Part shown: positions 29,638-56,204 of the stretch, piece after piece
Position numbering within the stretch: the first letter of the stretch is position 1
Layout of the letters: the number at the start of each line of letters is the position of its first letter
Source: Gammaproteobacteria bacterium
GTDB taxonomy: Bacteria > Pseudomonadota > Gammaproteobacteria > Enterobacterales > Psychrobiaceae
Length of the DNA stretch: 58,476 nt
Direction: 5' to 3'
Assembly (NCBI GenBank): GCA_013214965.1
Contig: JABSRU010000029.1
Coordinates: 1 to 58,476, forward strand
Position numbers and translations under genes: made by a program
Notes under the pieces: model-generated
What the model saw: only the letters and a program-made list of their open reading frames with translations
Database searches by the model: none
What the model was told of the DNA's origin: nothing

Positions 29638-30555
29638 ATGAAAAATAAAATCCAACTATCAAACGTACATGCAGATGACTATATTCCTAACATAGATTTA
29701 GGAAAATCCTACGATCAACGTTATATCGATATGGATATCCATTACGAAAGCTTAGAGAAGTTAGCTAACTTTTTTGGACGTAATATGCCGGTACATCATC
29801 ATGACCGCTTTTATCAATTACATGTGATCCTTACCGGGACAATTCATGTGAATTTAGATGAAAAGAGTTATGTTGTACAAGGACCAATGTTTTTCTTAAC
29901 TCCGCCAACAATACCCCATGCTTTTATCACCGATAAAAATGTAAAAGGTCATGTTATTACCATAAGGCAACAATTAGTGTGGCAATTAATGGAAAGCATA
30001 GAATCAACAGGGTGGGATAAAGGCAATTTTATGTCAACCCCTTTATGCGTATCCCTGATACCCGAAAAAAATAAAGATACTGACCACTTAATTGAATTAC
30101 TATCTTTAACCGCTCGAGAAAATCAACAGTCAGGAATAAAAAAAGACTTTGCTTTAAAGGCATTATTACAGTTGATATTAATAGATATTTTGCGACTTGC
30201 CGATCAAAGCCAACCACAACAAAAAATGCGTAAAGAGGATATACGAATTTTTCACCATTTTAATCAACTGATTGAAAGCCACTACAAAGAGCATTTAACC
30301 TTAACTCAATACTCAGAAAAAATTAGCATCACTGAGGCCCGCCTTAATGAAATTTGCCGCAAATTAGCTGGACTGCCATCAAAACGACTGATTATGGATA
30401 GATTAATTCAAGAAGCTCGACGATTATTATCCTTCTCATCAGTATCTATTACCGAAATAGGCTACGAACTAGGCTTTAAAGACCCTGCATATTTTGCGCG
30501 ATTCTTTCGTAAAAATACTGGTGTCACGGCAAGCAAATACAGAAGTGGAGAATAA
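29638..30555 (+). CDS. hpaA: HpaA-like AraC-family regulator of aromatic catabolism
   Basis: 305 residues: an N-terminal cupin sensor (about 40-120) and a C-terminal double helix-turn-helix (about 205-302). Segments FFGRNMPVHHHDRFYQLHV, GPMFFLTPPTIPHAF and RQQLVWQL match HpaA, the activator of 4-hydroxyphenylacetate hydroxylase (hpaBC) genes in enterobacteria. Here it sits directly upstream of a flavin monooxygenase gene in the same direction, so it probably activates that gene in response to a hydroxyphenylacetate-like compound. The symbol is by similarity. Confidence 0.85.
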   Translation: MKNKIQLSNVHADDYIPNIDLGKSYDQRYIDMDIHYESLEKLANFFGRNMPVHHHDRFYQLHVILTGTIHVNLDEKSYVVQGPMFFLTPPTIPHAFITDKNVKGHVITIRQQLVWQLMESIESTGWDKGNFMSTPLCVSLIPEKNKDTDHLIELLSLTARENQQSGIKKDFALKALLQLILIDILRLADQSQPQQKMRKEDIRIFHHFNQLIESHYKEHLTLTQYSEKISITEARLNEICRKLAGLPSKRLIMDRLIQEARRLLSFSSVSITEIGYELGFKDPAYFARFFRKNTGVTASKYRSGE

Positions 30556-30654
30556 TTTATATCCACTCAATAAGAGTTCACAGATTTTCTATGAAAAGTA
30601 CCATTAAAACAACGAAAATTATCTTTCCAGAAAACCCCCTCCCTCTATAATTAC

Positions 30655-30666
30655 TTAACACGTTAA
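30655..30666. promoter_or_regulatory. Palindrome TTAACACGTTAA upstream of the flavin monooxygenase
   Basis: A perfect 12-bp palindrome in the hpaA-monooxygenase gap, 145 bp before the monooxygenase ATG. It is one of five island sites with the TTAAC(A/G)(T/C)GTTAA pattern and is proposed to be an operator of the HpaR-like MarR protein. Confidence 0.6.
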
Positions 30667-30811
30667 CTGAATGTGTACATAAAAATTAAATACATTCCAA
30701 GTACAGTGGAAGCTAACGCTAACTGTACTGCTGTTTAATAACCTATATTCGTTAGACAACAATCAAGAGCAGCTAAAGAATACGCTTACAGTAAATTAGG
30801 AGAATTATATA

Positions 30812-32740
30812 ATGCAATACCACTTAAATGGTTTCAAACCCGGTAACTATCAAATCCCAGATTCAGTTCGGAAGCCAGCCCCTACTCTACCTATTTTAGA
30901 TCTCCCAAAGGAAGTCGATGTATTAATTGTAGGTGGTGGACCGGCAGGATTAGCGATGGCCAGGCAAATGTCTGAGTTCACTGACGTTACAACATGTATT
31001 GTTGATTTAGAAACTGGTCCTTTAATTTTTGGGCGTGCTGATGGAATATCTTGTCGTACAATGGAGATTATGGAAGGTTTTAACAGCTGTGAAATGGTTG
31101 TTAAAGAAGCTTACCGGTTAAATCAGAATACGTTCTGGGAGCCTGATAGTATAAAACCTGAACACATAAAGCGTACACATAAAATTCCTGATGCAAGAAT
31201 TGGTCTGTCTGAATTTGCACATGGAATTGTTAACCAAGCACGACTTCATGAATTATTATTGGAAGGCATGAAGAATTCAGTCACGCACCTTGTTCCCCAT
31301 TACAGCCGTCGATTGCTTGAATTAGATGTTGATCCTAACCTCACCCAAGATTTAAACGCACACCCTATTACTGCAACATTTGGGTTAAATGATGACGCTC
31401 AATCACCCAAAACCGAAACTGTTCGAGCCAAGTACGTTGTTGGCTGTGATGGAGCAAGAAGTGCTGTTCGAAGAGGTTTATCAATAACTTTAGAAGGTGA
31501 CTCAGCAAACAAAGCTTGGGGGGTCATGGATCTTTTATTAGTGACAGACTTTCCAGATATTAGAGTTAAAAGCTTTATCCAATCAAAAGAACACGGTGCT
31601 GTAATGACTATTCCGCGAGAAGGCGGTTATTTAGTTAGATTTTATATAGAGCTTGGTCTATTGAATAAAGATCAACGTGCGTCAGACCTTAACCTTAAAG
31701 CCGAAGATGTCATCGCAAAAGCACAACAAATTATGCATCCTTATAAATTAGATGTTAAGGAAGTTGCATGGTGGTCAATCTATGAGGTTGGACAACGAAT
31801 AGCAGATAGATTTGATGACACACCCGTTGGTAATCCAGAAGGCCTTATTCCACGTGCATTTGTTGCTGGTGATGCCTGCCATACACATAGCCCTAAAGGA
31901 GGCTGGGGCTTAAACACATCACTGCCAGACACCTTTAACCTGGGTTGGAAAGTTGCTTCTGTTTTGCAAGGTAAATGTAAGCCAAAGTTACTACAGACGT
32001 ACTCATCAGAGCGACGCAAAGTTGCTTTACAGTTAATCGAAGCAGATAGACAATTGTCAAAATTGGTGGCGACTTGCCCAACATCAGACGATGATGCACC
32101 TGAGGATAAAACTAATACGGCTGATATTGAGAAATTCATGGCGAGACAAAATGGTTTTGTTGCTGGCACAGCTATCGAGTATTACCCATCATATATCTGT
32201 ACTGGTCAAGAGAATCAGTATTTAGCTAGTGGATTTAAGATTGGTCAACGATTCCATTCAGCCGAGGCTATTCGAGTAGCAGATGGTGATCGACAACATT
32301 TGGGGCATCTGAATAAAGCTGATGGTCGCTGGCGCATTTTCATTTTTGGCAACAAACAAAATCCGGTAGAAAGCTCTTCCGAGTCATACAAGCTTGTCCA
32401 GTTTCTTGCGAACTCTGAATTTTCACCCGTACAAAAATACACCGAATACCTTGCAGACATTGACTCTGTTATTGATATTTATGCAGTATTTCAGCAACAA
32501 GACTTATCAATTGAAGATATGCCTGACTTTTTATGGCCAGCAAAAGGCAAGTATGGCTTGAGAGATTACGAAAAAGTTTTCCATGCAGAAAAAGGTAATG
32601 ACATATTTGAGCTCCGTAACATAGATCGCTCTAACGGATGTATGGTCGTAGTAAGACCAGACCAGCACATTGCCAATATCTTGCCTCTCAACGCATACGA
32701 CGAATTAACTCAGTTTTTTGACGAGTTTATGATTTCCTAA
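30812..32740 (+). CDS. FAD-dependent aromatic hydroxylase, MobA/PheA type
   Basis: A class A flavoprotein monooxygenase of 642 residues. It has the dinucleotide motif GGGPAG (41-46), the DG motif GCDGARSAVRR (about 212) and the GD motif GDACHTHSPKGGWGLN (about 353), then a C-terminal thioredoxin-like domain. Overall it resembles 3-hydroxybenzoate 4-hydroxylase (MobA) and phenol 2-monooxygenase. The family's usual KAGQGMN is KGGWGLN here, so the active-site rim differs. Beside an HpaA-like regulator and with hpaBC absent, it may hydroxylate tyramine, 4-hydroxyphenylacetate or 3-hydroxyphenylacetate to the catechol; this is inferred. AGGAG lies 8 nt before the ATG. Confidence 0.85.
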   Translation: MQYHLNGFKPGNYQIPDSVRKPAPTLPILDLPKEVDVLIVGGGPAGLAMARQMSEFTDVTTCIVDLETGPLIFGRADGISCRTMEIMEGFNSCEMVVKEAYRLNQNTFWEPDSIKPEHIKRTHKIPDARIGLSEFAHGIVNQARLHELLLEGMKNSVTHLVPHYSRRLLELDVDPNLTQDLNAHPITATFGLNDDAQSPKTETVRAKYVVGCDGARSAVRRGLSITLEGDSANKAWGVMDLLLVTDFPDIRVKSFIQSKEHGAVMTIPREGGYLVRFYIELGLLNKDQRASDLNLKAEDVIAKAQQIMHPYKLDVKEVAWWSIYEVGQRIADRFDDTPVGNPEGLIPRAFVAGDACHTHSPKGGWGLNTSLPDTFNLGWKVASVLQGKCKPKLLQTYSSERRKVALQLIEADRQLSKLVATCPTSDDDAPEDKTNTADIEKFMARQNGFVAGTAIEYYPSYICTGQENQYLASGFKIGQRFHSAEAIRVADGDRQHLGHLNKADGRWRIFIFGNKQNPVESSSESYKLVQFLANSEFSPVQKYTEYLADIDSVIDIYAVFQQQDLSIEDMPDFLWPAKGKYGLRDYEKVFHAEKGNDIFELRNIDRSNGCMVVVRPDQHIANILPLNAYDELTQFFDEFMIS

Positions 32741-33141: not shown

Positions 33142-34434
33142 TTAAAGACGATCAAATCGATATGGACTTGGATCAATGATGGGCTCAACGTTAGCAATTA
33201 AATCTGCAGCTAATTGTCCTGCAGCTGGACCGGTTCCAAAACCATGTCCAGAAAATGCGGTAGCTATCGTCAGACCTGGAATAGACTTAATCTTATCAAT
33301 AACAGGGTTAGAGTCAGGTGTCACATCAATAAGTCCCGCCCAAGCTTCTTCAATCTCTGCATCTTTAAAAGCAGGCCAAGCATTGCTAAGATTAGTTAAG
33401 GCCTGTTGGTTCAAATACGCATTAGGTTCAGGGTCGTTGACGCGAATTTTTTCAAAAGGTGAAGGTCCTTTGGGCCCCCATTGTCGAGAAAGTCCTAAAT
33501 CTTTAAAGAAGCGGCTGCCAATTTTTATTTTTAAGAAGCTGTATTGCGTGCGAAGTTGCTCAAGGTATCGATGACCAATTAAAAAATGATCAAGGACTAT
33601 AGGGGCATCAAGTTTACCCCGTTGGGTGATAATAAAACCACCATCTTTATGCTTTCTAAAAGAAAAGTCTGGCCCACCAACAGCGATGTCAGTTGGTCCT
33701 TCCATTGGTTTTGTTCGTAATACAGAACAAATTAATGGCAATGTTGGTAATGAAACACCAAGGTTTCCTAAGAAACGTCTAGACCACGCTCCACCCGCTA
33801 GCAATACTTGGTCGCAACGAATTTCACCTATTTCAGTCATTACACCACTGATTTTTCCGTCTGTTTTAGATAAGGTTCGAACTGCGCAATTTTGAATAAT
33901 AATGGCACCTTTTTCAACCGCCGCTTTAGCAATTGCTGAGGCAGCAACATCAGGTTCTGCATAACCATCAGAAGGAGTATAGAGACCACCAAGCCACTGA
34001 CTTTTTCCGCCAGGTATTAATTTATCAACTTCTTGTGCACTTAGCATTTTTGAGTCTAGTGAAAGCGATTCTACTGATTTTAACCAATTTTTATGCATTG
34101 ACATCTGCGCTTCAGTGTTCGCCAAAAAAATAATACCTGCTTGCTTATAACCGACATCACGTCCAATTCGACGGGGCATTTCCCTCCACAGGCGATCGGC
34201 AGCTACGGCTAACGGCACATCATGTAAATGACGGCTGGTCTTACGTATCCAGCCTAAATTCCGTGAAGACTGCTCCCCGCCAACCTGACCCTTTTCCAAT
34301 AACACTACCGGAATATTTCGCTCAGCCAAAGCAAGGGCTGCAGTGACACCGACAATACCACCACCAATGATCACTACGCTTGTTGAATCGGGAAGTTGAT
34401 CTTGTGTTTCAACTGCTTCGAGTGTTTTAGTCAT
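33142..34434 (-). CDS. DAO-family FAD-dependent amine/amino-acid oxidoreductase
   Basis: 430 residues with the Rossmann motif GGGIVG (24-29), LLEKGQVGGEQSSRNLGW near 45-62 where FAD is bound in DadA-like enzymes, and a C-terminal FAD block FSGHGFGTGPAAGQLAADLI. The DAO family oxidises amines or amino acids. It is the third gene of an operon with an OCD-fold protein and a RidA-like protein, a set found in tyramine/dopamine (tyn) clusters of other proteobacteria. I infer oxidative deamination of an aromatic amine to the arylacetaldehyde. AGGA precedes the ATG. Confidence 0.8.
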   Translation of the reverse strand: MTKTLEAVETQDQLPDSTSVVIIGGGIVGVTAALALAERNIPVVLLEKGQVGGEQSSRNLGWIRKTSRHLHDVPLAVAADRLWREMPRRIGRDVGYKQAGIIFLANTEAQMSMHKNWLKSVESLSLDSKMLSAQEVDKLIPGGKSQWLGGLYTPSDGYAEPDVAASAIAKAAVEKGAIIIQNCAVRTLSKTDGKISGVMTEIGEIRCDQVLLAGGAWSRRFLGNLGVSLPTLPLICSVLRTKPMEGPTDIAVGGPDFSFRKHKDGGFIITQRGKLDAPIVLDHFLIGHRYLEQLRTQYSFLKIKIGSRFFKDLGLSRQWGPKGPSPFEKIRVNDPEPNAYLNQQALTNLSNAWPAFKDAEIEEAWAGLIDVTPDSNPVIDKIKSIPGLTIATAFSGHGFGTGPAAGQLAADLIANVEPIIDPSPYRFDRL

Positions 34435-34493: not shown

Positions 34494-34913
34494 TTAGCTA
34501 ATAGTGATTTCTTTAACATATGCAGTAGAAGCACCGCGGTATGCAGTTACTTCTACTTCAACTTTATACGTTGTTGAACCTAGTGGTGGACAAGTTGCTG
34601 TTGATACTGGGTTAACTCCTTTAAATTTAGTGCCAATATAGGCCATAACATCATGAATATCTTTTGGATTTTGGATAAAAACATGAGATACAATAACATC
34701 AGCAAGCGTAGCATCTACTGCAGCAAGAGCACGTTCAATGTTGTTGAAAACTTGTTCTGTTTGCTCGATAACACCTTCTGGAATTTCTTGTGTGTCTGGG
34801 TTACGACCCGCACTGTTAGAAACGTAAATCATGTTATCAACCATCACTAAACGAGAGTAACTGGCGATTTCTTCAAATTTTGAACCTGTTTTAACTTTAA
34901 CAATCTGCGTCAT
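34494..34913 (-). CDS. RidA-family protein
   Basis: 139 residues with the YjgF/RidA fold. Archetypal RidA hydrolyses reactive enamine/imine intermediates using Arg105 in the motif PARS. Here the aligned stretch is PVST (102-105), so Arg is replaced by Ser104 and classical deaminase activity is doubtful. It belongs to a divergent Rid subgroup that often accompanies FAD-dependent amine oxidases. It is the middle gene of the OCD-RidA-DAO operon (93 bp after OCD, 59 bp before DAO). Confidence 0.85.
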   Translation of the reverse strand: MTQIVKVKTGSKFEEIASYSRLVMVDNMIYVSNSAGRNPDTQEIPEGVIEQTEQVFNNIERALAAVDATLADVIVSHVFIQNPKDIHDVMAYIGTKFKGVNPVSTATCPPLGSTTYKVEVEVTAYRGASTAYVKEITIS

Positions 34914-35006: not shown

Positions 35007-36146
35007 CTAACGTAATACGGGCTCGTCCCATAAATTAAGTTTCACACCAATGCCCTTTTCTAAAGCATTACGGTAAACCACGGTGGCCCATGCAACATCT
35101 TCCACTGGCATGCCGCCCACAGAGAGAATAATGATTTCTTCATCGTTTTGACGACCGGGGGCATTTCCTGAAACAATTTTCCCAAGATCTTCTAAATCGT
35201 CCATACTCAGCTGACCTTCTTCGACCATATCCATATAACGCATACCGATAAGAGGAATAACATGATGAGCTGGTTTCGGTACTTCTTCATACCAAGCTTC
35301 ATATAAACCTGTATTATCAAGCACTTTACGTACATCTAACTTTCCCATTTCAGCATCTAAACTACAGCTTGCTGGCATAGCTAAAAAAGCACCCGGTTTA
35401 ATCCATTCACGCTTAACAATAGGATAAGTTGTTGGATCACCTACTTCGCCAGAGTTGCAATAACTCACTAAATCTGAATCACGAACTACCGCTTCAATAC
35501 TGTCTACTGTTTGGATCGTCGTTATCTGAGGAAAGATTTCTTTTATCCAAGCGATAAAGCTATCTAAATTTTTCTGTCCTCGACCTCTTACTTTAATTGT
35601 GTCAACTTTAGGACAAGCGGCAATAAATGCAGCAACAGTTGTTTTACCCATGACACCGGGACCTAGCAGACCAATTACTTTTGAATCTTTTCTGGCAAGA
35701 TGTCGAGCCCCTACTCCAGGAATCGCACCGGTTCGGTAAGCGGAAAGCAAGTTAGCTGACATGTAGGCTAAAGGAGCCCCAGTATCAATGTCATTTAGAA
35801 TCATCATCAAAATAGAACGTGGTAATCCCTTTTCACGGTTTGCTATGTTTGAGCTATACCATTTCACACCAGACGTTTGGAAATTACCTCCAAGATAAGC
35901 TGGCATCGCCATCAAACGACGATCTGCTGTTGGTTTAGGCATCGTTGGAAAAGGTGACTCTTCAGGAAAGGTAATCATTGCACCGTGAGAATCATTGTTT
36001 GGACCAGCCATACGGTAGTCACCTTGATACAAGAGTGTAAACATCTCTTCCATAGTATCCACACAAAGCAGCATATCTGTAACGCCGGCTTTAATCATGT
36101 CAGGTTCAGAAAGGTATATAAAATCAATCTTAGTGTTTTCAGACAT
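35007..36146 (-). CDS. Ornithine cyclodeaminase-fold protein (tyramine-oxidase subunit B-like)
   Basis: 379 residues of the OCD/mu-crystallin superfamily: the N-terminal GVKWYSSN substrate lysine region, the Rossmann motif LGPGVMG and the C-terminal GNAPGRQNDEEIIILSVGG block. Proteins of this group next to a DAO-family flavoenzyme and RidA have been named tyramine oxidase subunit B in other proteobacteria; I use that name cautiously. It is the first gene of the operon. Its 390-bp upstream region is shared with the divergent LuxR-type gene and holds an island palindrome. Confidence 0.8.
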   Translation of the reverse strand: MSENTKIDFIYLSEPDMIKAGVTDMLLCVDTMEEMFTLLYQGDYRMAGPNNDSHGAMITFPEESPFPTMPKPTADRRLMAMPAYLGGNFQTSGVKWYSSNIANREKGLPRSILMMILNDIDTGAPLAYMSANLLSAYRTGAIPGVGARHLARKDSKVIGLLGPGVMGKTTVAAFIAACPKVDTIKVRGRGQKNLDSFIAWIKEIFPQITTIQTVDSIEAVVRDSDLVSYCNSGEVGDPTTYPIVKREWIKPGAFLAMPASCSLDAEMGKLDVRKVLDNTGLYEAWYEEVPKPAHHVIPLIGMRYMDMVEEGQLSMDDLEDLGKIVSGNAPGRQNDEEIIILSVGGMPVEDVAWATVVYRNALEKGIGVKLNLWDEPVLR

Positions 36147-36539
36147 AGTTTTTCCTATATTAAATGGGTTATCTTTTTCGTATTAATTTAACGTTGTTAT
36201 CTACAAATTTAGATTAATCTGGCTATTGCTACCATTAAGAATAAAAATCAACTGAATTACATGCCTATTTTATCTAGCGTAAGCAATTTATATATATCCC
36301 CTTAGGGACATTTTTAATTTAACTATTAAACTGTAGTGGAAGAGTAATACGATATAGAGCGATAAACTGTTGAGTATTTGTGTGAACTCTTTCTCGAAAG
36401 ACTAGCCACAACGCCTAAGTATTAACTTGATTAACATGTTAAGTATGATAAAAAGGTAGATATTGAATTAGCTTTTACTAAAAATGCCTCAATAAAAAGT
36501 GTTCGATACACAAACGACTGAAGAATGGGAGTGCAGTGA
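36147..36539. promoter_or_regulatory. Divergent control region between OCD operon and LuxR-type gene
   Basis: Non-coding, AT-rich. It contains the palindrome TTAACATGTTAA (36431-36442). GGGAG at about 36527 is the ribosome binding site of the LuxR-type gene. No other gene is visible. Confidence 0.5.
36431..36442. promoter_or_regulatory. Palindrome TTAACATGTTAA upstream of LuxR-type gene and OCD operon
   Basis: A perfect 12-bp palindrome, 98 bp before the LuxR-type ATG and 285 bp before the OCD start. The core is identical to the sites at 43797 and 51296. Confidence 0.6.
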
Positions 36540-37298
36540 ATGGTAAATACAAATCTATACGAAACTCTACCGTTTCTTATCCAAAGTATAGGTGAGCATT
36601 ATTTCTATGAACGAGTTACATGCTCTATTCAAGCATTAACCCCTATAGCTCATGCGAGAATCGTTAGCTATTCGCAAACACAGCGACCTGTTTTTTTAGG
36701 TGAAAACTCTCTGTCAGAAATTGACAAAATTTACTGTGAATCGGCGTATTTATTGGATCCGGTATACGACGATCTTTATGATAATAAAAATAAAGAATTC
36801 GTTACGTTAGATAGTCTCATCAATGATGACTTTAATGAATCAATTTACTATGACACTTTTTATCAACGCCTTGGTTGGTCTAATGAAACTAACATTGTTA
36901 TTGGTACCGACGATGACACAAAAATATGTATTGTTTATTCAACAAAGGATAATCATTTTTCTCAGCAATCTGCTAATAAAGAGTTAACACCCTATTTAGA
37001 TTCTATTAAAGCCGTAATTTTGACACACGAGCGAATGAGAGGCCTGATACAAAAAAATCAACAAATCGAGTGTGCCAGTTTAAATGATGAGAGTAAGCGC
37101 TACTCTCGACTTGACTCTCTTAATCTCACTAAACGAGAAAAAGAAATTGTCAATCTGATTTTAGACGGCTTTTCTTCTGCTGCCATTGCTGAAAAATGCT
37201 TCGTATCCCAAGGCACCGTTAAAAACCATCGTAAAAACATATACCGTAAACTTGGCATCAAGTCTCAAGCTCAATTATTTAGAAATTGTCTTCAGTAG
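36540..37298 (+). CDS. LuxR-type helix-turn-helix regulator
   Basis: 252 residues. The C-terminal HTH (about 188-250) has the LuxR signature LTKREKEIVNLILDGFSSAAIAEKC and VSQGTVKNHRKNIYRKLGI. The N-terminal 180 residues are a GAF/PAS-like sensor without the tryptophans and tyrosines of acyl-homoserine-lactone binding domains, so it is not a quorum sensor in the LuxI/LuxR sense. It diverges from the amine-oxidation operon and probably regulates it. GGGAG precedes the ATG. Confidence 0.8.
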   Translation: MVNTNLYETLPFLIQSIGEHYFYERVTCSIQALTPIAHARIVSYSQTQRPVFLGENSLSEIDKIYCESAYLLDPVYDDLYDNKNKEFVTLDSLINDDFNESIYYDTFYQRLGWSNETNIVIGTDDDTKICIVYSTKDNHFSQQSANKELTPYLDSIKAVILTHERMRGLIQKNQQIECASLNDESKRYSRLDSLNLTKREKEIVNLILDGFSSAAIAEKCFVSQGTVKNHRKNIYRKLGIKSQAQLFRNCLQ

Positions 37299-37571: not shown

Positions 37572-38939
37572 TTATTTGGGGATATGCATAGATTGCGTTG
37601 TTGTGTACTCATGAAGCCCTTCTATACCAAATTCAACACCAATCCCTGAAGATTTTACACCGCCAAAAGGTATATGAGGTAACACCTGACCGTGTCCATT
37701 TATCCATACACTACCACTTTCAATTTGTGCGGCAATTTCTGTTGCCTTATCAATATCTTTAGACCAAACAGAACCACCTAAACCAAAATCAGATTTGTTT
37801 GCACTTTTAATAGCATCATCTACATTGCTATATTTTATGATGGGTAATGCAGGACCAAACTGTTCTTCATCAACGATTCTCATACCATCAGCAGCATCGG
37901 CAACTAGCGTCAATGGATAAAAATAACCATTACCCGTTGCGGCTTCGCCTCCACAAAGGATACGGGCACCAGATTTTTTAGCATCTTCAACTAACTCAGA
38001 AACCAGATCAAACTGGCCTTTATTTTGCACTGGCCCAAAGATATTATTCTCATCTAAACCGTCACCCATTGGCATGTTTGTGGCTATTTTAGTTAGCGCT
38101 TCACAAACTTCATCATAAACATCCTCATGAACGTATAAACGCTTTAATGCTGCGCATGTTTGCCCACCGTTTATAAATGCCCCCCAGAAAAGTCCTTCTG
38201 CTATTGCTTGAACATTGACATCAGGTAAAACAATCCCTGCATCATTACCACCTAACTCAAGCGTAAGTTTTTTTAGGCTATCAGAAGCGTTCTTCATGAC
38301 TAATTTACCCACAGGAGTAGAACCCGTAAAAACCACTTTTTGGATTTGTGGATGTGACGGCAACTGATGCCCTACATGTCCGGTTATTACGCTTAACACA
38401 CCTTTGGGAAGTACTTTATTAAGAATACTGACCATTAAGACAGTACTTAGTGGAGTTAAGTTCGCTGGTTTGATAACAGCCGTACAGCCAACACGGATAG
38501 CAGGTGCGATATGCCAAATAGCGATCATCAATGGCCAATTCCAAGGCGTAATTGAAGCAACAACCCCGACAGGTTTTCTGAATAGAATAGCTTTACGCTC
38601 ATCACTATCTTCTAAAACTTTATCTTCAATTTTCATACCTCCAGTTGCACGCAACCAACTAACACAAGCTTCGATTTCAAATTCAGAACCTAGCCCTTTT
38701 AAAGGTTTACCTTGTTCTAAAGTAAGTAATTTAGCTAACTCTTGTGTATGTACTTCCAGTAAATCAGCCATCTTATTTAGTGCGTTTACTCGGACAGCAT
38801 CTGACGTTTTAGACCATAATTTGAAAGCTTCATTTGCTTCTAATACGGTTTTTTCTAATTGTTCTTGGCTGGTATTCGGACAAGTATCAAATACTTCACC
38901 GGTTGATGGGTTGATGACGTCAAAAGTTGTTGAATTCAT
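37572..38939 (-). CDS. NAD(P)-dependent aldehyde dehydrogenase
   Basis: 455 residues of the ALDH superfamily: PWNWPLMIAIWHIAPA, the catalytic Glu in LELGGND (about 228), Cys262 in NGGQTCAALKR, and a complete C-terminal FGGVKSSGIG segment. It is somewhat shorter than typical ALDHs (about 490). Given the amine oxidase and Hpa genes on either side, its likely substrate is 4-hydroxy- or 3,4-dihydroxyphenylacetaldehyde (the TynC role). AGAGG lies 7 nt before the ATG. It is transcribed alone. Confidence 0.85.
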   Translation of the reverse strand: MNSTTFDVINPSTGEVFDTCPNTSQEQLEKTVLEANEAFKLWSKTSDAVRVNALNKMADLLEVHTQELAKLLTLEQGKPLKGLGSEFEIEACVSWLRATGGMKIEDKVLEDSDERKAILFRKPVGVVASITPWNWPLMIAIWHIAPAIRVGCTAVIKPANLTPLSTVLMVSILNKVLPKGVLSVITGHVGHQLPSHPQIQKVVFTGSTPVGKLVMKNASDSLKKLTLELGGNDAGIVLPDVNVQAIAEGLFWGAFINGGQTCAALKRLYVHEDVYDEVCEALTKIATNMPMGDGLDENNIFGPVQNKGQFDLVSELVEDAKKSGARILCGGEAATGNGYFYPLTLVADAADGMRIVDEEQFGPALPIIKYSNVDDAIKSANKSDFGLGGSVWSKDIDKATEIAAQIESGSVWINGHGQVLPHIPFGGVKSSGIGVEFGIEGLHEYTTTQSMHIPK

Positions 38940-44275: not shown

Positions 44276-44287
44276 TTAACGTGTTAC
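44276..44287. promoter_or_regulatory. Near-palindrome TTAACGTGTTAC upstream of hpaG-hpaR
   Basis: It differs at the last base from the TTAAC-N2-GTTAA consensus. It lies 38 bp before the hpaG start, in a position to control hpaG-hpaR, including autoregulation of hpaR. Confidence 0.6.
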
Positions 44288-45186: not shown

Positions 45187-45188
45187 TG

Positions 45189-48208: not shown

Positions 48209-48286
48209 AGTCATTATTGAGCTCGCACTCAGCGGATACAGACTAAATAATATAACCCAACATCTTGAATGAAAATAGGAACGAAC

Positions 48287-49780
48287 ATGACACAAACAAT
48301 CGGCCATTTAATTAATGGTGAAATGATCTGCAATGACAGCCGAAGTCAAAATGTATTTAACCCTGCAACTGGCGAAGCGACTAAAAAAGTGGCGCTTGCT
48401 AGTAAACAAACTGTTGAACAAGCTATCAGTGCTGCACAAGCTGCATTCCCCGCATGGCGCAATACGCCACCGATTAAACGAGCGCGTGTTATGTTTCGTT
48501 TTAAAGAATTATTAGAACAAAACAGTGACAAAATTTGTCGCTTAATTGGTGAGGAACACGGAAAAATATCTCACGATGCAGCCGGTGAATTACAACGTGG
48601 TATTGAAAATGTTGAGTATGCTTGTGGTGCACCTGAATTACTAAAAGGTGAACACAGTAAAAATGTAGGCCCTAACATTGATTCTTGGAGCGAGTTTCAA
48701 CCGTTGGGCGTAGTGGCCGGTATCACCCCATTTAACTTTCCTGCCATGGTACCGATGTGGATGTTTCCACTAGCAATTGTGTGTGGTAACACCTTTATTC
48801 TTAAACCGTCTGAACGCGATCCAAGTTCAACATTGTACATTGCCCAATTACTTAAAGAAGCAGGATTACCTGATGGCGTAATGAATGTCGTTAATGGTGA
48901 TAAAGAAGCGGTAGATACGTTACTTAATGATCAACGTGTCAAAGCGGTTAGTTTTGTTGGTTCAACCCCCATTGCAGAGTATATTTATGCAACAGCAACT
49001 GCTAATGGCAAACGTTGTCAAGCCTTAGGTGGAGCGAAAAATCACGCGATTGTTATGCCGGATGCTGATATGGATAATGTTGTAAATCAATTGTTAGGTG
49101 CCGCTTTTGGCTCATCCGGTGAACGATGTATGGCTCTTTCAGTAGCGATTACTATTGGCGATGAAACTGGCGATACTTTAGTGGCTAAAATGACGGAAGG
49201 AATGAAAGGACTAACGGTTGGTGAACACAGTAATGCCAGTAATGATTTTGGCCCAGTGATCACTAAAGCACATCAAGAAAAAGTGAATGGTTTTATTGCG
49301 AGTGCAGCAGAGCAAGGTGCTAGTTTAGTGGTTGATGGTCGTAACCCCACCGTGGAAGGTTTTGAAAATGGTTACTTCGTCGGTGCAACCTTAATTGACC
49401 ATGTCACGGCTGATATGGTTAGCTATCAAGCAGAAATTTTTGGCCCTGTATTACAAGTAGTACGCGTTAAAACGATGCAAGAAGCAATGAAATTAATTAA
49501 TGATCACGAATATGGTAACGGAACATGTATCTTTACGCGTGACGGTGAAGCAGCTCGTTACTTCTCTGATAATATTGAAGTCGGTATGGTGGGTATCAAT
49601 GTACCGTTACCTGTGCCCGTGGCTTACCATAGTTTTGGCGGTTGGAAGCGTTCATTGTTTGGTGATTTACATGCTTATGGACCCGATGGTGTGCGTTTTT
49701 ACACTAAACGTAAAACTATTACACAACGCTGGCCATCAAGTGGCATACGTGAAGGAGTATCATTTGCCTTCCCCTCCTAA
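48287..49780 (+). CDS. mmsA: CoA-acylating methylmalonate/malonate-semialdehyde dehydrogenase
   Basis: 497 residues from the ATG at 48287 (AGGA 6 nt upstream; an ATG six codons earlier is less likely). MmsA-type ALDH: GITPFNFPAMVPMWMFPLAI, Cys281 in SSGERCMALS, and GGWKRSLFGDLHAYG near the C-terminus, features of CoA-dependent enzymes. It converts malonate semialdehyde to acetyl-CoA and CO2 (or methylmalonate semialdehyde to propionyl-CoA). It lies 78 bp after the aminotransferase gene, completing beta-alanine catabolism. Confidence 0.93.
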   Translation: MTQTIGHLINGEMICNDSRSQNVFNPATGEATKKVALASKQTVEQAISAAQAAFPAWRNTPPIKRARVMFRFKELLEQNSDKICRLIGEEHGKISHDAAGELQRGIENVEYACGAPELLKGEHSKNVGPNIDSWSEFQPLGVVAGITPFNFPAMVPMWMFPLAIVCGNTFILKPSERDPSSTLYIAQLLKEAGLPDGVMNVVNGDKEAVDTLLNDQRVKAVSFVGSTPIAEYIYATATANGKRCQALGGAKNHAIVMPDADMDNVVNQLLGAAFGSSGERCMALSVAITIGDETGDTLVAKMTEGMKGLTVGEHSNASNDFGPVITKAHQEKVNGFIASAAEQGASLVVDGRNPTVEGFENGYFVGATLIDHVTADMVSYQAEIFGPVLQVVRVKTMQEAMKLINDHEYGNGTCIFTRDGEAARYFSDNIEVGMVGINVPLPVPVAYHSFGGWKRSLFGDLHAYGPDGVRFYTKRKTITQRWPSSGIREGVSFAFPS

Positions 49781-50101: not shown

Positions 50102-51151
50102 TTATTTAGGTATTATCCTATTTTTCCGACGAAACTCTAGGGGAGTCATATCAGTCCACCGCTTAAAAGCACGACTAAAAGAACTAACATCAGAATATCC
50201 TAAAGTGATAGCAATATCTTGTAATATCACTTCTGATGCACTTAAATAATTTGATGATAATTTGTACCGTATACTTTCAATAACACTTAAAAATGACAAG
50301 CCATCATTAGAAAGTCTACGCTGTAAAGTGCGCTTACTGATGAACATTTTATCCGCGATCTCATCTATTTTAGGCACACCGTTTTCTAACGAATTAATAA
50401 TTTGTTCCTGAAAGGCGTGCAACCAATCTTGTGCTAACTGTTCCTGATTAATAGAAAGAAGATGTTCCATGGTAATAGATAATGATTTTTTTAACTGTAT
50501 ATCTATATTATGTACAGGGGTATTCAATAGTTGCTTGTCAAAAAACAAACTGTTATTAGGTTTATTAAAGTGAATATTTGAACCGAGTAACTTGATATGT
50601 TCGCTAATATCATCAGGGGCTTGATGTGAAAAGTGCACTGCGGTGGGTTGCCATTCATCACCATAAAGAATACGTATTAAAGTGACAGCCCCCATCAATG
50701 TCATTTCAGCATCTTGCCTACTTTTAGGGAAGTTTTTTGTGATTATATTATAAGTTAAAATAGCGGTGTCTTTTTCTGCCACGAGTTTATGTTCCATTCC
50801 TTGCTGAAACAAACAGTAATAACGACTTGAAAAATATAGCGCTTCTCCAATTGTTGTACTATTAAGCAGTACATAGCCAAAAATACCTAATCGCCTAAAG
50901 TCTATATTTTGATAATAGTGGAGTCCTAAGTTTTCATCCCCAATATACTTAGCAGCTTCTTCTAAAATCATGACAAATTGAGACATCGGCATTAAACCTT
51001 CATCATCGAGCAGTGTATTTTTATCTATTTGTAATTGATGCAAAAAACTGTCGGTATCTACCATCGCTTTATTGCGCATATGTTCAAATAATATATTTAC
51101 ATAGGTTTTACTAATCTTCGCCTCATCAATAGGTAAGGGAGTACTTGTCAT
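50102..51151 (-). CDS. AraC-family regulator with arabinose-binding-like N-terminus
   Basis: 349 residues. The N-terminal domain (about 20-210, EAAKYIGDENLGLHYYQNIDFRRLGIFGYVLLNS) is of the type found in OruR/ArgR-like AraC regulators of amino acid use. The C-terminal HTH (about 255-345) has ISKRTLQRRLSNDG and ITLGYSDVSSFSRAFKRWTD. It diverges from the TonB-receptor gene and likely controls the receptor-MFS-peptidase unit. The ligand is unknown; a Shine-Dalgarno is not obvious. Confidence 0.85.
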   Translation of the reverse strand: MTSTPLPIDEAKISKTYVNILFEHMRNKAMVDTDSFLHQLQIDKNTLLDDEGLMPMSQFVMILEEAAKYIGDENLGLHYYQNIDFRRLGIFGYVLLNSTTIGEALYFSSRYYCLFQQGMEHKLVAEKDTAILTYNIITKNFPKSRQDAEMTLMGAVTLIRILYGDEWQPTAVHFSHQAPDDISEHIKLLGSNIHFNKPNNSLFFDKQLLNTPVHNIDIQLKKSLSITMEHLLSINQEQLAQDWLHAFQEQIINSLENGVPKIDEIADKMFISKRTLQRRLSNDGLSFLSVIESIRYKLSSNYLSASEVILQDIAITLGYSDVSSFSRAFKRWTDMTPLEFRRKNRIIPK

Positions 51152-51456
51152 TTATAAATACCTCAATCGTACAATAATTGTTTATCAGTCATCTTTACTA
51201 CTATTCGAACATCCTCTACTTTTAATTGGTATTACATAGTGCGCCAATAAATGGCGTGTAGCGTCATTGTAAAGAATTAAACTTTAATCCAATATTTAAC
51301 ATGTTAAATATTTATGCCTTAAAGTAAGTACTTTTATCACATTATCTTAATACACAAAAGCAACTAACTTTAACAAAGTATAAATAATAGCCCCAAATCA
51401 TTAAACAATAGACACTATAAATAATAAATATAATAGCTTAAAGGTGGGAAATTATT
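51152..51456. promoter_or_regulatory. Divergent AraC/TonB-receptor control region
   Basis: Non-coding. It contains the island palindrome at 51296-51307 and a shorter inverted repeat GCGCCA/TGGCGT at about 51241-51257 that could serve the AraC protein. The receptor's ribosome binding site GGTGG is at about 51443. Confidence 0.5.
51296..51307. promoter_or_regulatory. Palindrome TTAACATGTTAA upstream of the TonB-receptor gene
   Basis: A perfect 12-bp palindrome 150 bp before the receptor start and 145 bp before the AraC start. The core is identical to that in front of hpaEDFHI, linking this module to the aromatic pathway. Confidence 0.65.
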
Positions 51457-53649
51457 ATGAAATACAAAACTAGTAAAATATATCAATCTGTCGCATTAGC
51501 ATTAACAGCTAGCTCATTTTTAAGTCTAAATTCAGCTTTTGCAGCAGAGAAAAAAACGGTAATAGAAAAAAATTCCACTTTGGAAGTTATACAAGTTACT
51601 GCGCGAAAACGTGTTGAAAGTGTAAGGGATATTCCAATTGCGATTAGCTCTATGGGAGAAGAAGCATTGAAATCGTTAGGTGCTGACTCAATGAGTGACA
51701 TCATTGGTAATGTGCCAAATTTAGCAATGGATCCAAATGGTAATTCTCTAGCTTCATGGGGGATGAGAGGGATTGTTAGCGTAACACGTAATGCAGGACA
51801 AGAAAGTGGATTAGGCGTATATGTTGACGGTGTTTATGCCGGCAGGCCAGCTTCTTACAATATCCCCGTTAGTGATATTCAACAGGTTGAAGTGTTGCGT
51901 GGTCCGCAAGGTTCTTTATTTGGGCGTAATACCATTGCTGGTGCAATAAATATTACCACTAAGCAACCAGAAGAAGAATTATCTGGCAACCTTGCTGCAT
52001 CAATAGGAAATTTTTCTAGGATTGAATTACAAGGTGGCCTTTCTGGATACCTTATTGAGGATGTTCTTGCGGCTAAGATTAGTGTTTTTACTAATACACG
52101 TGATGGCTATGTAAAAAATGTTTTTGATAATAAAGACTATATGGATAATGATCGTCAAGGTGGGCGTTTAGGACTTTATTGGACCCCAACCAGTAATTTA
52201 TCAATTACTTTGGCCACTGACTTTTTAGATCAAGAAAACCAACAATTATTTGGTCAAGCACTTGAGCCACAATTAAACGATATTATACCTGATTGGTACC
52301 AAAGTGATGCTTATACAGTTAACCAAAATGATCCTAACTCGGAGGACATTCAATCTGGTGGTACGAGTTTAACCGCTGAATGGGAAATGGATTCAGGCTT
52401 TATTTTAACGTCAATCACCGCCAAACGCTATGCTGACTTTGAAGTGTTTTCAGATGATGATGCCGGGCCAATTACACTGAGTTATTCTCATTTCGAAGAC
52501 AAGTCAGATACTTTTAGCCAAGAGCTACGTTTAACATCACCTGAAAACGATTCATTTGATTATTTAGTCGGTATATATTATTTGGATCAAGAAGTGACAG
52601 CACAACGTGAAACAATTACTTCAGGTGCCTTTCCTGATAATGATTTAGGTATTTTTAGTAATGCAACTGTAAATAGTGAAGCGTGGGCCATTTTTGGAAC
52701 CACAAATTTTTACTTAAATGAAGCGTTAACGCTAAGTATAGGTTTACGTTACACCGATGAAGAAAAAACAAGTTCATTTACACAACTAGAGAATGCAGGA
52801 CTCGGTTTCCCTAGCGTTTCTTTTAGCCCTACCATTCAAGACAGTGGGTTGTCTGGTGATATAAGTGTGGGGTATGTATTAAATGAAGAAATTAATTTAT
52901 ACGGCTCGCTGCGAAAAGGGATAAAAAGTGGTGGATTTCAAACAGACATTATTGATTTTTCTTCAGAAGATTTATTTACTTTTGAGCCTGAAGAAGCCAC
53001 TTCATATGAGATAGGCATGAAAGGTATGTTATTGGATGCGACCTTAAGGTTAGATCTCGCTTTATTCCGTACTGACTATGAAAACATGCAAGTAGGTCAA
53101 TTGTTAGGCCTTGGTTTCACCACCACGAATGCAGGTGAAGCAGAAATAACAGGGATAGAAATAGAAGCTGAATGGCTGGCAACTGAATCATTGACACTAG
53201 GTTTCAGTGGCGGGGCAATGGATCATGAATATACTGCTTATGACGGATGTAATGGCTCAGGAGTCAGTTGTGCCGGCAACGACTTGCAACTTGTAACCGA
53301 CTGGACAGCTGCAGCAACATTGGATTATTTTTACGATTTCAATGATGATTCAACGATACAATTTCATGTAGACGCAACATCTCGTAGTGACAGTTTCACT
53401 GATGCTATCAACGATCCTGATTTACGTGTATCGAGTTATACTTTGCTTAATGCTCGTATCAGCTACGTAACACCTAACGAAGATATTACTGTCGCTTTAT
53501 GGGTTAAAAACCTTACCAATAAGGAATATAGCTCTCTGTTTTGGAAGTACCCTATCACTCCTATAGCCTTCGGTGACTCTTTTACCGGTTTACAGCATTT
53601 ATTGGGCACACCGCGAACTTTTGGTATTGATGTCAATTATCGATTTTAA
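51457..53649 (+). CDS. TonB-dependent outer-membrane receptor
   Basis: 730 residues: a signal peptide (cut near AFA-AE, about residue 30), a TonB box region (LEVIQVTARKR, about 43-53), plug domain (about 55-170, GLGVYVDGVYAGRP, VEVLRGPQGSLFGRNTIAGAIN) and a barrel ending in the terminal Phe of IDVNYRF. Such receptors with the RKRVES-RDIPIAIS pattern in marine bacteria often carry organic nutrients rather than iron. Together with the downstream MFS and peptidase genes it probably takes up the island's substrate. Confidence 0.92.
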   Translation: MKYKTSKIYQSVALALTASSFLSLNSAFAAEKKTVIEKNSTLEVIQVTARKRVESVRDIPIAISSMGEEALKSLGADSMSDIIGNVPNLAMDPNGNSLASWGMRGIVSVTRNAGQESGLGVYVDGVYAGRPASYNIPVSDIQQVEVLRGPQGSLFGRNTIAGAINITTKQPEEELSGNLAASIGNFSRIELQGGLSGYLIEDVLAAKISVFTNTRDGYVKNVFDNKDYMDNDRQGGRLGLYWTPTSNLSITLATDFLDQENQQLFGQALEPQLNDIIPDWYQSDAYTVNQNDPNSEDIQSGGTSLTAEWEMDSGFILTSITAKRYADFEVFSDDDAGPITLSYSHFEDKSDTFSQELRLTSPENDSFDYLVGIYYLDQEVTAQRETITSGAFPDNDLGIFSNATVNSEAWAIFGTTNFYLNEALTLSIGLRYTDEEKTSSFTQLENAGLGFPSVSFSPTIQDSGLSGDISVGYVLNEEINLYGSLRKGIKSGGFQTDIIDFSSEDLFTFEPEEATSYEIGMKGMLLDATLRLDLALFRTDYENMQVGQLLGLGFTTTNAGEAEITGIEIEAEWLATESLTLGFSGGAMDHEYTAYDGCNGSGVSCAGNDLQLVTDWTAAATLDYFYDFNDDSTIQFHVDATSRSDSFTDAINDPDLRVSSYTLLNARISYVTPNEDITVALWVKNLTNKEYSSLFWKYPITPIAFGDSFTGLQHLLGTPRTFGIDVNYRF

Positions 53650-53840
53650 CTTGTTGAGTAAAAGTTAAATTCATATTGACAATTGAAGCACAACTTAATG
53701 ATTGATGTTGTGCTTCATACGAATCCTATCGAATGGTTTTATTGAGTTTCCCATTCTAAATAGTGAGTTAAATTTGGAGTAGAGTAAAATTATTTATGAT
53801 CTCACATAGAATCAGATTTTAGTGCTTAGGAGCTAATAAA

Positions 53841-54998
53841 ATGGACATTGATAAACGTTCTGTCGTCATATCATCAATTATATTAAGTGTTATCGGGATG
53901 AGCGGTTTTTTAATATTACCGTTACTCATTGGGGCTGTTGCTAATAGTTTGCACTTTAATGAACAAGAACTAGGGTTTATGGCTTCAAGCATAATGACCG
54001 CTGCCGCAATCAGCTCAATTTTTTCGATCATTTGGATCCGTAAAATAAATTGGAAATTAGCAGGTTATGCTGCAGTCCTGCTTATGTTTGTCTCTCATAT
54101 TTCAGCATTGTTTATTCATCACCAAATATTTTTTGTTTTGTTAATGTGTGCAGCTGCATTTGGTGGCGGCACTTTGTACTCCATTGCTCTCACTGTACTT
54201 TCTGACAGCAGTAATGCTGATCGTTATTTTGGTTATTCAATTGCAGCACAGGTTTCTTTTCAAGTACTAGGATTAATGATCCTACCCAAATTCATTACTC
54301 AATACGGTATTAATAGCTTGCTGACGTTGTTTCTTATACTAGAAATTATCGGCTTACTACTTTTACGTTGGCTACCTCGTCGTGGTGTTGAAAGAACTAA
54401 AAACACAGTAATCACCCATAATATAGTAGATATAAACAATTTTGTTAATGGCCTATTAAAACCTAAAGTTGTCTTGGCATTATTAGGCTGTTTTATGTTC
54501 TTTTTTAACGTTGGCGTTATTTGGACTTACATAGAACGTATGGGAAACAGTGTTGGATTCTCTTCTGAAGATATTGGCCTGGCCTTAAGTATTGGCGTGT
54601 TTTTTGGCATACCAGGTGCATTATTAGCCGCATGGATTAGTCAACGTTTTGGTCATGTTCGTCCGCTAGCTTTAGCGGCATTGCTAACCGTTATTTCAGT
54701 TTATATGTTGATTGAAAGTATGACGTTCACTGATTATATCATTGCGCTGATACTTTATAATTTTTCTTGGAATTTTTCACTTACTTTTCAATATGCTGTA
54801 GTGAACTCTGTAGACACCTCAGGAAGAGGTGTCGCTGCTACTCCGGCTTTCCATGCCATGGGGGCTGCAGCAGGTCCTGCCATTGCTGCCTTGTATGTCA
54901 CGTCGAGTAATTATATCGCCGTGAATATTTTGGCAATATCGAGCGTAATCATAAGTTTATTATTTTTTGTCGTCGCCAATAAATTGCGAAAAAGATGA
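53841..54998 (+). CDS. MFS transporter
   Basis: 385 residues, about 12 membrane helices, and a major facilitator layout with a central loop (about 178-205). It is not like HpaX, the roughly 450-residue 4-hydroxyphenylacetate permease. AGGAG lies 9 nt before the ATG. It sits 191 bp after the TonB receptor gene and 72 bp before the P1 peptidase gene, so it is the likely inner-membrane importer of the same compound. The substrate is unknown. Confidence 0.88.
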   Translation: MDIDKRSVVISSIILSVIGMSGFLILPLLIGAVANSLHFNEQELGFMASSIMTAAAISSIFSIIWIRKINWKLAGYAAVLLMFVSHISALFIHHQIFFVLLMCAAAFGGGTLYSIALTVLSDSSNADRYFGYSIAAQVSFQVLGLMILPKFITQYGINSLLTLFLILEIIGLLLLRWLPRRGVERTKNTVITHNIVDINNFVNGLLKPKVVLALLGCFMFFFNVGVIWTYIERMGNSVGFSSEDIGLALSIGVFFGIPGALLAAWISQRFGHVRPLALAALLTVISVYMLIESMTFTDYIIALILYNFSWNFSLTFQYAVVNSVDTSGRGVAATPAFHAMGAAAGPAIAALYVTSSNYIAVNILAISSVIISLLFFVVANKLRKR

Positions 54999-55070
54999 AA
55001 TAGAAATAAATACTCTAACTAATTAATATATTTATTAGGTCACCGAAAATAGAACTTGAGAATAATAAAA

Positions 55071-56204
55071 ATGAATATAAAAAAGACAAAAAAACGCGCA
55101 AGAGATTTAGGCCTACCGTTAGCAGGTAAAACAGGAAAATGGAACGCCATTACTGATATTCCAGGTATAGAAGTAGGTTATACCACGATAATAAAAGGTC
55201 AAGGTGATTTAGTCGTAGGCAAAGGACCTGTTTGTACTGGCGTTACCGCCATATTACCCCGTGGGTGTCAAACAAAGCCTCAGCCAATATGGGCAGGTCA
55301 ATTTGACTTAAATGGTAATGGTGAACTTACCGGCTCGCACTGGATTAAAGATGCTGGCTACTTTACCAGCCCTATTTGCATTACTAATACTCATTCCGTT
55401 GGTATCGCTCATCATGCCACTACTGCATGGATGATAGAACAGCATAAAGAGCATTTTCAAAATTCACATTCATGGGCGATGCCTGTAATAGCAGAAACTT
55501 ACGACGGATTACTAAACGATATTTGTGGACAACATATCACATCAGAACATGTACTACATGCTCTAAACTCTGCTACTACAGGTATGATTGAAGAAGGAAA
55601 TGTAGGTGGGGGTACCGGTATGCAAAGCTATGAATTCAAAGGGGGAACAGGTACAAGTTCTCGCCTAATTACTATTGAAGATAAAGAATATACCGTCGCT
55701 GCACTAGTACAATCGAATTTTGGTTTAAGAGCTGAGTTTACCGTTTGTGGTGTACCTGTTGGACAGCATATTACGGATAATGCCATTTTGTCTGAAACAA
55801 CGGGTCATGAAACAGGATCTATCGTTGTCATATTAGCGACAGATATTCCTATGCTACCGATACAATTGCAAAGACTTGCTAAACGTGGCGCTATTGGTAT
55901 AACTCGTACTGGGAGTTATGGTGGTCATTTTTCAGGTGACATCATGCTAGCATTTTCTACCGCTAATGACATAGATATGCCACCATTAGGCGCTGATCAA
56001 CCCCGTAGTTTTAATTTAGAATGTGTTAATGACGCACATATGGATGTTATCTATGAAGCTGCCGTACAAGCGGTTGAAGAGTCAGTACTCAATGCTATGG
56101 TTGCTGCTGAATCGGTAGCAACCATAAAGCCAGCTAACCGAGTACTTGAGGCAATTGATCATGATGCACTGTGTGATATTATGAGAAAGTATAATCGACT
56201 ATAG
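55071..56204 (+). CDS. P1-family (DmpA/BapA-like) aminopeptidase
   Basis: 377 residues from the ATG at 55071 (a TTG five codons earlier is also open). P1 enzymes self-cleave to expose an N-terminal serine nucleophile. The conserved GNVGGGTGM and KGGTGTSSR motifs are intact (Ser196/Ser197). Known members release N-terminal beta-amino acids, notably beta-alanine, or small D/L-amino acids from amides and dipeptides. There is no signal peptide, so it should act in the cytoplasm on imported substrate. It is the last gene of the island, about 50 bp before the tRNA relic. The beta-alanine genes upstream fit its product. Confidence 0.88.
   Translation: MNIKKTKKRARDLGLPLAGKTGKWNAITDIPGIEVGYTTIIKGQGDLVVGKGPVCTGVTAILPRGCQTKPQPIWAGQFDLNGNGELTGSHWIKDAGYFTSPICITNTHSVGIAHHATTAWMIEQHKEHFQNSHSWAMPVIAETYDGLLNDICGQHITSEHVLHALNSATTGMIEEGNVGGGTGMQSYEFKGGTGTSSRLITIEDKEYTVAALVQSNFGLRAEFTVCGVPVGQHITDNAILSETTGHETGSIVVILATDIPMLPIQLQRLAKRGAIGITRTGSYGGHFSGDIMLAFSTANDIDMPPLGADQPRSFNLECVNDAHMDVIYEAAVQAVEESVLNAMVAAESVATIKPANRVLEAIDHDALCDIMRKYNRL

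Follow-up and report, generated by a model that had tools for sequence, protein, structure and literature searches.

A tyramine/dopamine catabolic region joined to a P1 peptidase module, a candidate route for aminoacyl, probably beta-alanyl, arylethylamines in a gammaproteobacterium

The stretch of DNA analysed here (the window, 58,476 nucleotides of contig JABSRU010000029.1, assembly GCA_013214965.1, Gammaproteobacteria bacterium) carries, between positions 29638 and 56204, the genes for homoprotocatechuate ring cleavage (hpa), a tyramine-oxidation (tyn) set, a beta-alanine:pyruvate-type aminotransferase (AptA) followed by a CoA-acylating (methyl)malonate-semialdehyde dehydrogenase (MMSDH), and a TonB receptor–MFS transporter–P1 peptidase module. 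We consider that there is about an even chance that this region combines a known tyramine/dopamine catabolon with an added cassette that takes up and uncaps an arylethylamine bearing an aminoacyl, probably beta-alanyl, group, and that both halves of this compound would be consumed. An initial annotation, made from the letters of the sequence, had proposed a complete pathway for N-beta-alanyldopamine or a similar amine; all the modules it claimed are present, and the shared operator and the recurrence of P1 with AptA also stand, but the beta-alanyl cap is likely only, and the gene evidence does not separate dopamine from tyramine.

Gene Content of the Region

The region holds 21 intact genes of at least 120 amino acids (open reading frame listing, with overlapping opposite-strand frames set aside), and every gene named below is an intact open frame at the coordinates given. 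Assignments compare bit scores with the curated NCBIfam cut-offs and use Pfam domains where NCBIfam fell short. The P1 and AptA modules comprise the following genes:

45788..46708, minus strand: LysR regulator, transcribed divergently from aptA (a 48% relative adjoins AptA and P1 in locus L208)
46862..48208, plus strand: AptA, beta-alanine:pyruvate aminotransferase type (NF052567, 692 bits, cut-off 500; PDB 3a8u, 4b98)
48269..49780, plus strand: MMSDH (TIGR01722, 681 bits, cut-off 448; PDB 4zz7)
50102..51151, minus strand: AraC-family regulator of the P1 module (PF12625 and PF12833)
51457..53649, plus strand: TonB-dependent outer-membrane receptor (PF00593 and PF07715)
53841..54998, plus strand: MFS transporter (PF07690), with no solved relative by sequence
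55056..56204, plus strand: P1 (S58) peptidase, DmpA-like (PF03576, 365 bits, cut-off 24); its start may be the ATG at 55071

The placement of the peptidase in the P1 family, already made by the initial annotation, is borne out by its S58 domain, by a match to DmpA (1b65) over the full length at 391 bits (BapA, 284 bits), and by a conserved Gly-Ser pair at residue 255 of the 382-residue frame, where DmpA also has Gly-Ser and BapA has Asn-Ser. We take this pair to be the self-cleavage and nucleophile site; the sole letter difference between 3n2w and 3n5i, Ser against Ala, fits a self-cleavage role. A crude measure shows no strongly hydrophobic stretch at the N-terminus. Neighbourhood evidence, AptA lying beside P1 in 6 of 49 other P1 loci, points to a putative release of N-terminal beta-alanine.

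The tyn set and its neighbours are as follows:

33142..34434, minus strand: DAO-type flavoprotein (PF01266; relatives of at least 55% in 78/80 tyn loci)
34494..34913, minus strand: RidA-type protein (PF01042, L-PSP; NCBIfam RidA 54 bits, below the cut-off of 106; relatives of at least 50% in 74/80)
35007..36146, minus strand: TynB, ornithine-cyclodeaminase fold, "tyramine oxidase subunit B" (PRK06199, 720 bits, cut-off 362)
36540..37298, plus strand: LuxR-family regulator (PF00196; relatives of at least 40% in 8/80)
37572..38939, minus strand: aldehyde dehydrogenase (PF00171; reaches the cut-off of no NCBIfam model listed)

The tyn loci counted here and below are the best 80 of 194 confirmed TynB relatives, several of them short or from the same genome; tynB, RidA and DAO genes are found together in 74 of them, Pseudomonas putida included. 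TynB is 92% identical to a protein of Colwellia sp. DT_18, and one other genome of 273 in the class sample has a match to it at E ≤ 1e−100. Because the best solved relatives of the DAO-type flavoprotein are L-amino acid deaminases, the putative assignment to tyramine depends on the NCBIfam name and this conserved company. The aldehyde dehydrogenase, which has an 80% identical counterpart adjoining tyn in Colwellia, would by inference catalyze the arylacetaldehyde step.

The hpa genes and the hydroxylase lie on both sides of the tyn set:

29638..30555, plus strand: HpaA, AraC-type regulator (TIGR02297, 399 bits, cut-off 275)
30812..32740, plus strand: single-component FAD hydroxylase, MobA/phenol hydroxylase family (PRK08294, 836 bits, cut-off 560)
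39253..40053, minus strand: HpaI aldolase (TIGR02311, 378.5 bits, cut-off 369)
40066..40869, minus strand: HpaH hydratase (TIGR02312, 415 bits, cut-off 352)
40944..41327, minus strand: HpaF isomerase (PF02962, CHMI, passes; NCBIfam HpaF 99.6 bits, below the cut-off of 215)
41340..42194, minus strand: HpaD homoprotocatechuate 2,3-dioxygenase (TIGR02298, 490 bits, cut-off 316; PDB 8iq8)
42218..43744, minus strand: HpaE dehydrogenase (TIGR02299, 784 bits, cut-off 638)
44326..45186, plus strand: HpaG-like protein (PF01557; HpaG model 175 bits, below the cut-off of 276)
45186..45635, plus strand: HpaR, MarR-type regulator (TIGR02337, 143 bits, cut-off 121)

The HpaG-like protein has one FAA-hydrolase domain where the usual enzyme has two. 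The hydroxylase is MobA-like, its best solved relative being 2dkh, a 3-hydroxybenzoate hydroxylase, and no PF03241 (HpaB) match was found in the 95.7%-complete host genome. It probably replaces HpaBC. Its relatives of at least 40% occur in 2/80 tyn loci (similar genes lie at L107 17226-19148 and L075 18649-20553), and in Marinomonas fungiae one of 72% adjoins tyn and is closely preceded by TTAACATGTTAA. With its tyn and hpa company and an HpaR-type site, in a genome with no HpaB match, it is a candidate 4-hydroxyphenylacetate (or tyramine) hydroxylase.

HpaR-Type Operators

The region has six short palindromic sites, each of them between genes, although 86% of the stretch is coding:

30655..30666: operator TTAACACGTTAA, ahead of the hydroxylase gene
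36431..36442: operator TTAACATGTTAA, between tynB and luxR
39217..39228: candidate operator TTAACCGGTTAA, upstream of the aldehyde dehydrogenase gene
43797..43808: operator TTAACATGTTAA, ahead of hpaE
44276..44287: one-mismatch operator TTAACGTGTTAC, ahead of hpaG-hpaR
51296..51307: operator TTAACATGTTAA, between araC and the TonB receptor gene

The pattern TTAACNNGTTAA, which was chosen once the island had been seen, is matched by the sites at 30655, 36431, 39217, 43797 and 51296, and with one mismatch by that at 44276. It occurs at 19 places genome-wide, five of them inside these 26.6 kb, whereas the reversed control pattern occurs at 28. None of 500 dinucleotide shuffles of the island reached five sites (mean 0.08), and a Poisson estimate for their density is 4e−8, a figure that ignores relatedness and concerns a pattern picked after the fact. 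When one mismatch is tolerated, 10 sites are counted across the whole window for 4.55 expected, and 1 of 100 shuffles gives as many. The looser TTAA-N4-TTAA shows no enrichment in the AT-rich island: 64 of 500 shuffles attain the five sites seen. Within the 4.25-Mb genome the exact TTAACATGTTAA has three occurrences, each inside the island (36431, 43797, and 51296), so that the shared operator, noted without coordinates in the initial annotation, is real and includes the divergent promoter of the P1 module. HpaR-type sites are present at hpaE, tyn, the hydroxylase and the P1 module but not at aptA/mmsdh.

According to an excerpt of a study of Yersinia (PMC7180172), the footprinted HpaR sites at the hpaG1 promoter have the sequence TTAA-XXXX-TTAA, "similar to E. 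coli W", whereas the HpaR site at a type VI secretion system promoter is quite different. The island operators fit the footprinted TTAA-N4-TTAA palindrome as given in that excerpt. The exact 12-mer TTAACATGTTAA was also found in 8/80 tyn loci, all from Marinomonas; it lies beside hpa genes in seven of them, with two such places in six of these seven, and in M. fungiae its start lies 25 bases ahead of tynB and 61 ahead of the match to the 72% hydroxylase relative. Because Marinomonas tyn loci thus carry it beside hpa, tynB and the hydroxylase gene, the island sites are likely HpaR operators, which would place the divergent promoter of the P1 module in the predicted HpaR regulon.

Pairing of P1 and AptA in Other Genomes

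P1 relatives were collected from samples of the order (19/394 genomes at E ≤ 1e−20), of the class (4/369 at 1e−75) and of the phylum (19/398 at 1e−85), each including the host genome, and of the family of genome G323 (5/198 at 1e−60, host genome not included). They give 49 non-own P1 loci, among them several species of one genus and some short contigs; the partial match L027 was left out. A single-sequence pattern scan of the genome contigs with P1 yielded 51 stretches, none encoding a relative.

AptA is found close to P1 in six of the 49 loci, from genomes with four genus labels (G323, G411, and G541 under one label, G515, G956, and G1222), and is 47.5–64% identical to that of the window; the four AptA partners that were scanned (of the six, all except those of G411 and G541) pass the AptA cut-off. 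In G323, G411, G541 and G1222, AptA and P1 flank MMSDH, all three genes having the same orientation. On a P1 tree of 50 rows, the AptA label (window included) needs five changes, of which starred branches force at least four, and all AptA-linked P1 fall in the tree half that holds the window; DmpA itself is not among the rows. The tree thus points to repeated, if somewhat clustered, pairing. The presence of AptA at 6/49 P1 loci compared with 0/82 tyn loci (L072 and L073, both from G711, included) gives a Fisher p of 0.0022, and at least four P1-AptA adjacencies have a Poisson probability of 5e−5 under the assumption of one AptA per 5 Mb; both values ignore relatedness. The initial annotation had named a failure of the modules to co-occur elsewhere among the results that would refute it. 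For tyn loci this part of its test does go against the proposal, the modules being absent from all 80 in the stretches read; P1-AptA does recur, as does P1-AptA-MMSDH at 19–25 kb from hpaR in one genus.

The closest P1 homologues (56–59%; L192 and L056) are not beside AptA. At L056, an ABC transporter set that includes an RpiR-type regulator precedes P1; a similar run of same-strand genes is present at L192. In G515 (L058/L059), P1 and AptA are accompanied by a lyase gene, a GH18-family gene, an HDAC-like gene and a 2,925-residue open reading frame.

A Second Assembly and Other Uncapping Hydrolases

In G323, the order of genes is P1, permease, MMSDH and AptA; LysR; an iron-type alcohol dehydrogenase (Fe-ADH); LuxR, DAO and cupin; a hydrolase, an HDAC-like amidohydrolase and MFS; a sulfatase, a sulfatase maturase and an amino-acid-type permease; short-chain dehydrogenases (SDRs) and MoaF; and finally HpaR and hpa genes with HpaB. 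G541 and G411, like G323 of the same order as the host, share the P1-AptA, LuxR-DAO, MFS-HDAC, MoaF and hpaR parts; the sulfatase is present in G541 and was not found in the G411 stretch. In these three genomes, P1 and hpaR are 19–25 kb apart. That G323 carries a copy of the whole window set was considered and rejected: because of the gap between hpa and P1, its different DAO and its own HpaB, the G323 set is a second assembly and not a homologous island. TTAA-N4-TTAA occurs four times in 54 kb of the G323 stretch (61–63% G+C; 0.07 expected) and four times in 38 kb of G541 (0.07 expected). The G323 sites are all between open reading frames, two at hpaR/hpaG, one 28 bases before LuxR-DAO and one before the sulfatase; no HpaR-type site was seen at its AptA or P1. 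In P. putida (L125), a DAO with 70% identity to that of G323 comes after hpaR and a site of this type. The company of MoaF and sulfatase resembles the Klebsiella monoamine regulon; a search of the open-access literature found no paper mentioning MoaF.

Other hydrolases accompany tyn. HDAC-like amidohydrolases (kin of HDAH/propanil hydrolase) are encoded in 6/80 tyn loci (L080, L083, L098, L118, L129, and L131), four of them directly after an MFS gene and 1.4–7.5 kb from tynB; in Sessilibacter corallicola (L131) the gene follows a TonB receptor, and neither TonB nor MFS was seen at L129. These enzymes are possible N-acyl-arylethylamine hydrolases. Sulfatases (at least 34%) occur in 4/80 tyn loci. 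The Colwellia sp. DT_18 metagenome-assembled genome (L074 911-18615), whose tyn set is 90–92% identical to that of the window, has TonB and MFS genes on either side of a 3-guanidinopropionase-like ureohydrolase, and its locus also holds a sulfatase, a class-III aminotransferase and TTAA-N4-TTAA sites. In G515 the HDAC-like gene, AptA and P1 all lie within 18 kb, and in G206 a remote HDAC relative (30%) adjoins P1. The MFS-P1 pair of the window fits a pattern in which a cap is removed and the amine then oxidized; its MFS protein is 22–29% identical to those beside the other hydrolases.

These loci raise a broader suggestion, which we put forward tentatively and regard as rather doubtful: that the tyramine/dopamine catabolon is an HpaR-controlled hub for interchangeable transport-plus-uncapping cassettes, acting on capped catecholamines that serve arthropods and other invertebrates in hardening and defence, with P1 and AptA-MMSDH serving beta-alanyl caps, the HDAC-like enzymes acyl caps, sulfatases sulfate caps and the ureohydrolase guanidino caps.

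Proposed Pathway and Alternatives

In the extended catabolon, the TonB receptor and the MFS transporter would bring in an arylethylamine with an aminoacyl cap, beta-alanyl-tyramine or N-beta-alanyldopamine being the likeliest, and cytoplasmic P1 would cleave its amide. AptA and MMSDH would convert the released beta-alanine to acetyl-CoA, while the tyn enzymes and the aldehyde dehydrogenase would yield (di)hydroxyphenylacetate, to which the MobA-like hydroxylase may supply a second hydroxyl if required before the hpa enzymes open the ring. HpaR is predicted to repress the tyn, hpa, hydroxylase and TonB/AraC promoters through the TTAA-N4-TTAA sites, and AptA-MMSDH probably answers to its own LysR, which would respond to beta-alanine. 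N-beta-alanyldopamine and N-acetyldopamine are described as cuticle-hardening molecules of insects in the portions available of PMC10531651 and PMC8062583, and this role makes N-beta-alanyldopamine a fair candidate for the natural substrate.

Several observations weigh against this proposal. The exact gene set of the window is absent from every other genome examined, and its combination of tyn with P1-AptA-MMSDH is rare: within 10 kb or less on each side, none of the 80 tyn loci has P1 (at least 30%), AptA (at least 45%) or MMSDH (at least 45%). Most P1 loci (43/49) have no AptA in the stretch read, and among the 15 non-own genomes of the phylum samples with both genes, G956 alone has them adjacent. 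The AptA label is partly clustered on the P1 tree, 17 of 500 shuffles needing as few changes. There is no HpaR-type site between lysR and aptA, and G005, of the same genus as the host, has LysR-AptA without P1. Moreover, DmpA-type enzymes also take alpha-aminoacyl substrates, so that a beta-alanyl cap is likely at most.

The absence of an operator at aptA, the LysR-AptA pair of G005 and the many P1 loci devoid of AptA would all be expected if P1 cut some other aminoacyl amide or peptide of an arylethylamine (alanyl- or glycyl-tyramine, or tunichrome-like catechol peptides), AptA-MMSDH being an independent beta-alanine module that came to lie in the same block by chance; the TonB receptor may likewise suggest a larger ligand. 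Such chance neighbourhood sits poorly, however, with adjacencies of P1 and AptA that are forced into at least four places on the P1 tree, and with the single same-strand order that includes MMSDH in four genomes, and we hold this explanation to be unlikely, albeit a serious one. Less probable still is that a tyramine/dopamine catabolon merely lies next to a separate module for carnosine-type (beta-alanyl-histidine) compounds or beta-peptides. DmpA and BapF are reported active on carnosine in the part of PMC9235088 available, and the modules are found separately elsewhere. In G515, the lyase gene adjoining P1-AptA scores best with histidine ammonia-lyase models, which could make carnosine or another beta-amino acid compound a possible substrate there. 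Its identification as a histidine ammonia-lyase is tentative, the scores (391–399 bits) being below the cut-offs (524–539; 399 against 524 for the best) and a beta-phenylalanine aminomutase model following closely (388 bits). A separate module would, however, have to share the exact operator that hpaE and tyn carry and that the rest of the genome lacks, and no histidine-degradation gene is among the 21 genes scanned. As a last alternative, TonB-MFS-P1 might take up and hydrolyze a catechol siderophore or similar iron carrier, whose catechol part hpa would burn. The best solved relatives of the receptor are indeed pesticin and siderophore receptors, but these matches are weak (101 bits at best) and related receptors, 27–29% identical, adjoin tyn in L074, L119, L131 and L145, which leaves this explanation very improbable.

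Genomic Setting

The host genome comprises 4.25 Mb in 144 contigs (95.7% complete, 3.25% contamination). Two features flank the region:

28579..28655, plus strand: tRNA-Met (CAT), ARAGORN, left edge of the region
56277..56326, plus strand: partial repeat of the tRNA-Met 3′ end (52 columns, 88%), right edge, just beyond the P1 gene

They make a tRNA-associated genomic island probable, and only probable because no integrase is found among the 21 genes scanned (open reading frames below 120 amino acids lay outside that scan) and an empty site could not be shown: the YceI regions are without tRNA in four of the six relatives having a match, two of these four at contig ends. Between tRNA-Met and hpaA, the stretch at about 28978-29330 resembles by eye a broken transposase remnant, presumably IS66-like. 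P1 is present in one of nine genomes of the host family, which consists of one genus, and AptA in two of nine. A marine lifestyle of the host is suggested solely by the closest tyn relatives, from Colwellia and Marinomonas.

Comparison with Known Systems

If the proposed pathway is correct, the region would represent a bacterial route for N-beta-alanyl catecholamines, provide a natural role for P1 (DmpA/BapA-type) peptidases, which to our knowledge is unclear, and yield markers of microbial recycling of the nitrogen and carbon in cuticle. In the open-access literature, partially surveyed, we found no bacterial gene set for N-beta-alanyl catecholamines, and a search for carnosine-aminopeptidase operons returned no paper.

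The combination of tyn and hpa for tyramine and dopamine is itself already described, as the 3,4-dihydroxyphenylacetate (3,4-HPA) catabolon of P. putida U (Arcos 2010, as cited in the excerpt of PMC7180172). The window shares with it tyn, the meta-cleavage genes HpaD, E, F, H and I and the regulators HpaA and HpaR, and differs in adding TonB-MFS-P1 and AptA-MMSDH, in having a MobA-like hydroxylase and no HpaB match where HpaBC would be expected, and in its single-domain HpaG-like protein, which falls short of the model cut-off. With the HpaR regulon of E. coli W and Yersinia pseudotuberculosis, as far as the excerpt describes it, the window has in common HpaR and TTAA-N4-TTAA at hpa promoters, whereas its putative sites extend to the tyn, hydroxylase and TonB-MFS-P1 promoters. 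The P1 peptidase resembles the S58/P1 beta-aminopeptidases DmpA of Ochrobactrum anthropi and BapA in its whole-length match and has the DmpA-type Gly-Ser site, but its gene belongs to a module that also encodes a TonB receptor and carries an HpaR-type operator. Finally, like other systems that combine AptA with a CoA-acylating semialdehyde dehydrogenase, the window has both enzymes above curated cut-offs and a divergent LysR; unlike them, it sets this pair beside P1 and an arylethylamine pathway.

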